From: Alphaproteobacteria bacterium
GTDB taxonomy: Bacteria > Pseudomonadota > Alphaproteobacteria > WRAU01 > Hepatincolaceae
DNA: 54,729 nt
Direction of reading: 5' to 3'
Assembly: GCA_009780035.1 (NCBI GenBank)
Contig: WRAU01000010.1
Location: 1 to 54,729, forward strand
Positions 36,700 through 48,612 of this stretch are shown one piece after another; position 1 is the first letter of the stretch, and each line of letters opens with the position of its first letter. The notes below the pieces were generated by a model, which saw only the letters and a program-made list of their open reading frames with translations, made no database searches and had not been told where the DNA came from. Made by a program: the position numbers and the translations under genes.

Positions 36700-37041
36700 T
36701 TATTTAATATCATTGCTATTTTTTATTGCAAGTTCAATTATATTCAACACATCTTGTTCTGCTCCGTAATAGCTGTTAAGAATTTTTTCTACTTTGTAAA
36801 TTTTATCAAAGTGTTTAAAGGTTTCTCGTATGCCATTAATTCGTCTGTGTCTATCAGCTATTTTATTGTAGTGAGCTGCTATTAGTTCATGAACTTGCGG
36901 TGAATTTTCAATTAAATCTTTAATTTCCAGCAGTAAATCATCATAATTTTTAATAATCATAGCAGAATTATATAAAAGATTATTAAACTGTGTTTTAATA
37001 TCGTAATGAGCTAATGCGGGTTTTTTGGTAGAATCGGTCAT
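36700..37041 (-). CDS. Small hypothetical helical protein, opposite strand in the ruv cluster
   Basis: I do not recognise this 113-residue protein. It is predicted mostly helical and charged (YDDLLLEIKDLIENSPQVHE, HYNKIADRHRRINGIRE, HFDKIYKVEKILNSYY), with no membrane segment or signal peptide. A Shine-Dalgarno GAGAGG precedes the ATG. A candidate promoter (37244-37272, minus) and a long structured leader lie upstream, so it may be regulated through that leader. It is the only minus-strand gene between 31.8 kb and the window end. Confidence 0.65.
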   Translation of the reverse strand: MTDSTKKPALAHYDIKTQFNNLLYNSAMIIKNYDDLLLEIKDLIENSPQVHELIAAHYNKIADRHRRINGIRETFKHFDKIYKVEKILNSYYGAEQDVLNIIELAIKNSNDIK

Positions 37042-37063
37042 TTGCAGCCTCTCTTTTAATATA

Positions 37064-37237
37064 AATTTATAAAGGGCGGGAGGTTCGTAACTCTACTGTA
37101 TCAAAGAGCAAGATTATTTCCCCGGAGGGTATTGTATTCTCTACCCTCCCGCCCAAGCATAATATATATAAAAAAAGAGCCATATATTACGGATAGGCGA
37201 GACCGGATACAATGCACCTATGGGTTACGAAGCCCAC
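37064..37237 (-). ncRNA. Candidate structured leader RNA with competing hairpins
   Basis: This is a GC-rich island in an AT-rich spacer. A 10-bp perfect stem pairs 37074-37083 with 37145-37154 (GGGCGGGAGG and its complement). An 8-bp stem, 37124-37131 with 37142-37149 (GGAGGGTA/TACCCTCC), shares the bases 37145-37149, so the two exclude each other. A third hairpin, 37222-37235, has the loop ACGA. Nested long-range complements also exist: TTCGTAAC 37084-37091 with 37224-37231, and ATTGTAT 37131-37137 with 37207-37213. The promoter and the orphan gene downstream suggest minus-strand transcription. It matches no riboswitch class I know. A 38-codon frame (37067-37183, minus) crosses it but lacks a ribosome-binding site. 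Confidence 0.45.
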
Positions 37238-37243
37238 ATTAAT

Positions 37244-37272
37244 ATTATTTAATAATTGCCAATGGTTGTCAA
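37244..37272 (-). promoter_or_regulatory. Candidate promoter for the leader RNA and orphan gene
   Basis: On the minus strand a perfect TTGACA (plus 37267-37272) and AATAAT (plus 37244-37249) are 17 bases apart. The predicted start, near 37237, is at the base of the ACGA-loop hairpin. Confidence 0.55.
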
Positions 37273-46710: not shown

Positions 46711-48612
46711 TTGAAGAATAGGAATAATTTTATTGTAATTATTTTGGTGGTTATGGGATTAGCTTTAGGCTATAACTACTTCTTTTTAAACCAACGCGCC
46801 CCAGCCGAACAGCACCTTACTTATACCGAATTTTTAAGTAAGCTAGATACTAATACTATCCAAAAAGTTTCTATTAACGGCAATTTACTAAAAGCGGTTG
46901 ATGAAAAAGGCGTAGTGTATTTAACTGCTTTTCCGCCGAATGATAATGATATTATTAGAGAGCTTAGAGATAAAGGAGTTAATATTTCTATTGCTATGCC
47001 CGATAGTGCTAGCAGCGGCGTAGGAACTTTTATTGTAATTGCCTTAGCTGTGTTTTTAATTTTTATGATTATTCGTTCTCTCCGTGGCGGCGGCGATAAC
47101 TCTAGCGGTGGTTCTCCGGGAGGCGGCAACAATCCTTTTTCGTTTGGAAAGTCTAAAGCTAGACTCTCAACCCCTAAAGATTCTAATATAACTTTTGCTG
47201 ATGTAGCAGGAGTAGATGAAGCTAAGGATGATTTAGAAGAAATGGTCGATTTCCTAAAAAATCCTAAAAAGTTTGAAAAATTAGGCGCAAAGATCCCTAA
47301 GGGAGCACTTCTTGTTGGTTCGCCGGGAACTGGAAAAACTTTGTTGGCTAAAGCTGTAGCAGGTGAGGCACAGGTGCCTTTTTTCTCTATTTCAGGATCA
47401 GATTTTGTAGAAATGTTTGTGGGTGTTGGTGCCAGCAGGGTTCGTGATTTATTCAATCAAGCAAAAAAACATGCGCCTTGTATTGTTTTTATTGATGAAA
47501 TTGACGCAGTTGGCAGAAAAAGAGGTATCGGTATTGGCGGAGGCAATGATGAAAGGGAGCAAACCCTTAACCAATTGCTTGTAGAAATGGACGGCTTTAG
47601 CTTTAATCAAGGAATTATTATTCTAGCAGCTACGAATCGCTCTGATGTGCTAGATCCAGCCCTGCTTAGACCTGGTCGGTTTGATAGACAAATAACTGTG
47701 CCATTGCCGGATATTGTTGGGCGCGAGAAGATTTTGCAAATTTATCTTAATAAGCTGCCATTGGATTCTCAAGTTAATATCAATGTTATTGCTAGAGGAA
47801 CTACAGGGTTTTCAGGAGCCGAGTTAGCAAATCTTGTAAATGAAGCAGCTTTAGGTGCGGCTCGTAAAAATAGAGAATTTGTTGATATGGAAGATTTTGA
47901 AGAAGCCCGCGATAAAATTATCATGGGGTCGGCTCGTAAATCTGCAAAAATGGGTGAGGAAGAAAGAACTCTTACCGCCTACCACGAAGCCGGACATGCC
48001 TTGGTAGCGTTTAAAAGCGATGGTGCGTATCCAGTGCATAAAGTAACTATTATTCCGCGCGGCAGATCGCTTGGGGTAACTTCATTTATTCCTGAGAAAG
48101 ATGAATATTCTAGGTCTTACAAACAATTAACTGCACAATTAGCAGTATTATTTGGCGGAAGATTGGCAGAAGAAATAAAATTTGGCAAAGAAAATATTAC
48201 CACTGGTGCAGCAATGGATATTCAAATGGCAACAAATATTGCCAATAAAATGATTACCGAGTGGGGTTTTAGTGATGTAATTGGTAGGGTGCGCCATGTT
48301 GATAATGAAAATGGCTATGGGTCGCGTGGGTCTTCCGAGCATACTGCTAAAGAAATTGAAGAAGAAGTTAGAAAACTTATAAATGAGGCTGAAAACAAAG
48401 CAAGAACTATACTAACTGAAAACGCAACGGCTCATATTGCGCTATCAGAGGCTTTGCTTGACTATGAAACCTTAAGCGGGCTTGAGGCAAAACTTGTATG
48501 TGAAGGTAAAACAGTGGAAGAAATCCGTGCTGTAAAAAACACTAGTGAAGTTAAGGCTGAGGAAATTAAAATTGAAGATGAGTTAAGCTCCTCTGTGCCC
48601 ACAGTAAGTTGA
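46711..48612 (+). CDS. ftsH: ATP-dependent zinc metalloprotease FtsH
   Basis: This membrane AAA+ protease degrades misfolded membrane proteins and regulators such as LpxC. It starts at TTG 46711, giving about 633 residues, because TAGGAGA lies just upstream and the product then begins [20 protein letters not shown], the expected first membrane helix. An upstream in-frame extension from 46606 would run inside tilS. The second helix is [18 protein letters not shown]. Walker A is GSPGTGKT (Ser in place of the usual Pro), Walker B is [16 protein letters not shown], the SRH is [20 protein letters not shown], and the zinc site is HEAGH near residue 425. Confidence 0.96.

Follow-up and report, generated by a model that had tools for sequence, protein, structure and literature searches.

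In phages P1 and P7, the antisense RNA C4 is processed by RNase P and then acts as a repressor through base pairing at the ribosome-binding site (summarised in PMC5320573, PMC12197685). The phage P1 annotation lists promoters, a1 (48255), b1 (48269), c4 (48343-48419), a2 (48423), b2 (48452), icd, and ant, with b2 just before icd. C4 folds into three helices, with the a′ segment in the junction between helices P3 and P1 and the b′ segment in the loop of P3, and its leader contains a terminator. Related arrangements exist in other phages. In prophage Gifsy-1, the short terminated leader RNA IsrK, which controls orf45, anrP, and antQ, pairs with and activates the read-through message (PMC4825925). 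The CI RNA of phage P4 has complementary sites, seqA and seqC, upstream and downstream of the processed RNA, and acts through termination of transcription, not at a Shine-Dalgarno sequence. In Acinetobacter baumannii, the Group 1 C4-like sRNAs comprise many chromosomal C4-type RNAs per genome, which differ in their a′ segments, undergo C4-like processing, and match C4 itself (PMC5320573).

The sRNA-Xcc1 family (RF02221) was detected in Xanthomonas campestris, the only species in which it has been mapped, as an RNA of 88 nt (PMC2996969), and is found upstream of symE in Xanthomonas integron cassettes (PMC12444791). Later work treats it as a trans-acting or exported regulator (PMC12189769). In the literature consulted, it is described as a virulence-linked or exported RNA whose predicted targets are distant, without leader targets (PMC12444791, PMC12189769). 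A search of mostly open-access papers found no link between sRNA-Xcc1 and C4, and the sole co-mention treats them as separate RNAs (PMC12189769). Against that literature, both the C4-type interpretation of sRNA-Xcc1 and the expansion of this RNA together with a private small-protein family appear to be new.

The locus described here lies in the window, the whole 54,729-nucleotide stretch of alphaproteobacterial DNA that was analysed. The feature between ruvC and ruvA is very likely one of 13 dispersed cassettes that are built like the phage P1 immunity switch and consist of a C4-type antisense RNA and an ORF.

Layout, family, and fold of the RNA between ruvC and ruvA

The unit is a minus-strand element of roughly 570 bases in the spacer between ruvC (end 36659) and ruvA (start 37330), in the order promoter, leader hairpin, terminator-like stem with U-run, structured RNA, Shine-Dalgarno sequence, and 113-aa ORF. 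All coordinates below refer to the minus strand of the window. The good minus-strand promoter seen in the sequence-only reading was recovered by the promoter scan as TTGACA-17-AATAAT (37272-37244), with 11/12 consensus matches over the -35 plus -10 hexamers; the -35 hexamer TTGACA (37267-37272) is conserved in nearly all 13 copies, and the -10 hexamer is AATAAT (37244-37249). The leader opens with the 5′ hairpin TGGG-CTTCGTAA-CCCA (37221-37236), which is the small ACGA-loop hairpin noted earlier and bears a1 (TTCGTAAC; 37224-37231). This is followed by b1 (TGTATC; 37206-37211) and by a terminator-like stem, GCC..GGC with a subsequent U-run (37169-37198), as the putative end of a short leader; a strict terminator scan of the window did not find this stem. 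A run of at least four T follows the leader stem in 9/13 copies of the genome, and the terminator-like U-run is weak or absent in about 4/13. Downstream lie the structured RNA (37067-37154), the Shine-Dalgarno sequence AAAAGAGAGG (37048-37057), and the ORF (36700-37041), which is the presumed regulated gene and belongs to a paralogous family of helical small proteins.

The sequence-only reading could not place the RNA in a known class; in Rfam, 37067-37154 matches sRNA-Xcc1 over the full length of the model (1-87) at 54.1 bits, just above the gathering cutoff of 53. The remaining copies of the genome score 35-60 bits against RF02221, and the window RNA scores 99.6 bits against a covariance model built from 12 of the 13 copies. 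At E 1, the C4 covariance model RF01695 has no hit in the window stretch, and its best score in the genome is 18.1 bits (cutoff 45), away from the window locus. Among the Rfam clans, C4 and c4-a1b1 (RF03163) are both placed in CL00128 and sRNA-Xcc1 in none. sRNA-Xcc1 is outside the C4 sequence family as defined, yet is built and placed like C4: it shares with the RNAs of P1 and P7 the order promoter, a1, b1, RNA, probable a2 and b2 at the Shine-Dalgarno sequence, presumed regulated gene, the three helices with a′ in the junction and b′ in the loop, and the leader terminator. Since the C4 model does not match, the case for homology with C4 relies on the layout, the folding plan, and the leader terminator. 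One sRNA-Xcc1 leader (L185) has an exact copy of the phage P1 leader terminator, GCGGTATTTTTGTGTCC, and many have a near-identical one; a loose pattern of this terminator type is present in 28/73 sRNA-Xcc1 leaders. The most fitting reading of sRNA-Xcc1 is as a family of C4-type antisense RNAs.

The family is widespread, being present in 50/398 sampled Pseudomonadota genomes and on 68 stretches of viral contigs. The genes that follow its members often encode Bro-N, KilA-N, P22_AR_N, or Rha domains, or SymE. Bro-N, KilA-N, P22_AR_N, and Rha make up the usual antirepressor set, and many sRNA-Xcc1 members, like C4 systems, precede genes of this type; the ORF of the window has no match to these domains. 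Providencia, Pseudomonas aeruginosa, and Arsenophonus plasmids (NZ_OY979118.1, NZ_OY979224.1, NZ_CP064404.1, NZ_CP077978.1, NZ_CP123491.1) also show matches to an sRNA-Xcc1/SymE region, at places without a listed feature.

The fold was examined by comparison of the copies. RNAalifold on a mixed MAFFT alignment yielded three pairs only, because the helices are poorly aligned in it; the copies of the genome were aligned apart. In this alignment, 97% of cells are paired over four helical segments, double changes occur at four pairs, and 0/500 shuffles reach the covariation score. Helix P1 (37145-37154 with 37074-37083) is the 10-bp G/C stem of the sequence-only reading and is conserved in the paralogous copies, with 97.5% of cells paired and double changes at two pairs. 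Helix P2, with the constant internal loop AAUACAAUACC / GGGAAAUAA, and helix P3 lie within 37067-37154; b′ (GATACA; 37097-37102) is in the loop of P3 and a′ (GTTACGAA; 37084-37091) in the P3-P1 junction. The single 202-nt stretch folds moderately better than shuffles (z -2.5, 3/200), so that the strong structural evidence is comparative. The P2 internal loop, AAUACAA-ACC / GG-AAUA (37107-37138), hardly varies across all sRNA-Xcc1 RNAs; C4 of phage P1 lacks it, and sRNA-Xcc1 has the longer P2.

The same stems had suggested a cis-acting riboswitch or attenuator, in which two mutually exclusive leader stems would sense a signal and thereby regulate the gene downstream. The order promoter, structured leader, Shine-Dalgarno sequence, and ORF fits this reading, and an 8-bp stem competing with helix P1 can indeed form in the window copy. 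In the other 12 copies, however, the P1 5′ arm has no alternative pairing longer than 5 bp, which leaves the mutually exclusive arrangement in 1/13 copies and not as a conserved feature. Variable, copy-specific segments are furthermore the opposite of a conserved ligand pocket, and there are 13 dispersed copies, and neighbours in prophages and plasmids. The analysis gave no sign of a ligand, nor of any regulation of ruvA or ruvC, and a riboswitch or attenuator is barely credible here. What holds from the earlier proposal is the position of a regulatory RNA between promoter and ribosome-binding site, with the unrecognised gene as its presumed partner.

Thirteen cassettes and a family of small proteins

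The Rfam model identifies 13 copies in the genome (1.42 Mb, 17 contigs), at unrelated loci and beside unrelated neighbours, and the model made from the genome's copies recovers the identical 13. A dispersed cassette of 13 loci comes close to the repeat at many unrelated loci that the sequence-only reading had named as evidence against itself. A typical copy is a cassette with a sigma-70 promoter, a leader hairpin, often a terminator-like stem and U-run, the RNA, and a Shine-Dalgarno sequence, and is usually closed by a small paralogous gene. A member of the small-protein family begins 21-25 bases after the RNA match in 10/13 copies, and the motif YDIK-QF--LL is common to the ten paralogues (86-120 aa), early in their sequence. 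One of the remaining cassettes (L006) has a Bro-N gene after the RNA, the sole antirepressor-type gene among the 13. In two copies (L005 and L009), the ORF is shortened or broken while the RNA and its targets are intact, and the small ORFs of the cassettes are decaying. An ORF remnant without RNA (L214) was also seen on contig C1.

This genome has expanded sRNA-Xcc1 jointly with a new small-protein family. In contrast to C4 of P1 and P7, the regulated gene would here usually be a new small ORF, and 13 copies are present in one chromosome set. The differences from A. baumannii Group 1 are that the RNAs are of the sRNA-Xcc1 type and do not match C4, and that an unrelated alphaproteobacterium carries them, together with leader targets and in most cases a paralogous ORF.

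The Shine-Dalgarno sequence and unrecognised gene of the sequence-only reading are both present at the window, where the 113-aa ORF matches nothing in NCBIfam and nothing above cutoff in Pfam, and has only weak PHROGs matches to families of unknown function. Its AlphaFold model consists of two long helices at middling confidence (pLDDT 75, pTM 0.44), and a structure search with this model returned no significant match. The ORF family is absent from 238 other alphaproteobacterial genomes save for one weak, stop-interrupted match, and no homologue was found in plasmids or phages.

These proteins bear on a type I toxin-antitoxin-like use of the layout, in which the small ORF would be toxic and the RNAs would silence it. 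SymE-type genes follow some sRNA-Xcc1 members, icd, the C4 target of phage P1, carries the annotation of a cell-division inhibitor, and the cassettes are dispersed with mostly distinct addresses. Against this, the ORF of this genome has neither a toxin family match nor an informative structural match, and the two copies with broken ORFs keep the RNA. A toxin-antitoxin use is unlikely, and would in any case be another purpose for the same switch, not another mechanism.

The three nearest genomes, of the same family, have neither the RNA nor the ORF. ruvC and ruvA are separated by about 25 bases in one of them (G001) and by about 50 in another (G003); in the third (G002), no ruvC was seen beside ruvA. 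Because these relatives are without RNA and ORF, and ruvC adjoins ruvA in G001 and G003, the ruvC-ruvA unit was apparently added in this lineage. In a further genome (G334), nine sRNA-Xcc1 copies were observed (including L159, L164, L165, and L168-L171); of its small ORFs, two that were tested belong to the XAC0095 family (NF047335) and one is SymE-like by eye. sRNA-Xcc1 has apparently expanded alongside a small-ORF family on more than one occasion.

Copy-specific complementarity between leader and RNA

In each of the 13 copies, a′ at the junction of P3 and the P1 3′ arm is complementary to a1 in the leader hairpin, and almost all copies show the corresponding complementarity of b′, in the P3 loop, to b1, just past this hairpin. 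The letters of a and b differ in most copies, although L005 and L012 have a′ in common and L007 is without a clear b1. At the window, the distant complementarity of GTTACGAA and TTCGTAAC reported in the sequence-only reading is an instance of a class that lies far beyond chance, and TGTATC with GATACA is a second pairing that follows the rule. The nested ATTGTAT/ATACAAT pairing does not follow it: it uses the AATACAAT stretch, which is almost constant in all copies, whereas its leader partner is not constant.

Complementarity was measured as the longest Watson-Crick run in matched versus mismatched copies, with 20,000 label shuffles. Among the 13 copies, the runs are 7.62 vs 5.19 nt for a1/a′ and 8.23 vs 5.65 nt for b1/b′ (0/20,000 shuffles), where the matched-versus-mismatched design keeps base composition and, since the copies are related, the shuffles serve here and below as a guide and not as an exact probability. 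At 29 loci from other genomes, the corresponding values are 8.55 vs 5.43 for a1 and 7.07 vs 5.60 for b1 (0/20,000). A further 39 held-out loci, which were not used to set the zones and come in part from the same genomes, give 7.92 vs 5.31 for a1 and 6.67 vs 5.33 for b1 (0/20,000), and in this set the identity and P1-arm controls give no signal. A weak excess of complementarity between the P2 zone and the leader was also seen at the 39 loci (277/20,000), outside the model's account. When the same pairing script is applied to phage P1, complementary runs appear at both sides of C4 and the four annotated sites are recovered.

Further matches to a′ and b′ (a2 and b2) lie on the downstream side, in the sequence that leads to the start codon; they are strong in other genomes and weaker than those of a1 and b1. 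In the 13 copies, pairing with the Shine-Dalgarno region is reached by 8/20,000 shuffles, and a2 alone is not significant (1133/20,000). The Shine-Dalgarno AAAGAG of the window can pair with CUCUUU of P3 as a b2-like target of only 6 nt. Two other readings were considered and rejected. The leader U-run as an anti-Shine-Dalgarno is not copy-specific in the genome (5666/20,000), and for a bridge-RNA-like guide of a mobile element, the partners are the leader and Shine-Dalgarno sequence and no transposase is present at the cassettes in the loci read.

The pairing pattern also bears on the view taken from Xanthomonas, that sRNA-Xcc1 is a free-standing, trans-acting sRNA on distant host genes and the adjoining ORF incidental. 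Detection of the X. campestris RNA at 88 nt (PMC2996969) and its later treatment as a trans-acting or exported regulator (PMC12189769) favour this view, but a processed C4 would equally look like an 88-nt RNA. The variable segments track the leader and Shine-Dalgarno sequence of the same cassette, both in this genome and in unrelated ones, and the ORF partner is kept in 10/13 copies, which makes the free-standing reading quite improbable, though the RNAs may have further targets in trans. Instead, the evidence from sequence says that the primary pairing partners of sRNA-Xcc1 would be encoded beside the RNA, in the layout of the phage P1 C4 switch, which would provide a directly testable target for every member of the family. 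Since most cassettes have their own a and b letters, most should not cross-regulate, and the 13 cassettes offer a natural set for the divergence and specificity of antisense switches.

Proposed operation of the cassettes

In the proposed C4-type switch, the promoter would make a short leader that bears a1 and b1 and may stop at the terminator-like stem, while read-through transcripts would carry the C4-type RNA and then the small ORF. The RNA would probably be freed at helix P1, as C4 is by RNase P, exposing a′ and b′. These segments could pair with the target at the Shine-Dalgarno sequence and keep the ORF silent. As the leader a1-b1 can pair with the same a′-b′, it may serve as a decoy and thereby release the message, in a manner like that of the short IsrK of Gifsy-1. 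By analogy with repression by C4 and activation by IsrK, the RNA would thus silence the ORF and the leader would relieve it.

A broader scenario is that this small-genome alphaproteobacterium turned a phage immunity switch into 13 chromosomal cassettes, mostly with distinct RNA addresses, that silence members of a new family of small helical proteins, and that the RNAs may also act in trans when an incoming phage brings an antirepressor message with a matching target. This is offered tentatively, as possible but doubtful. In another genome (G054), four loci (L014, L021, L025, and L029) are C4-type cassettes before Rha-like genes of 261-282 aa, and in all four a1, b1, a2, and b2 are clear by eye and by script.
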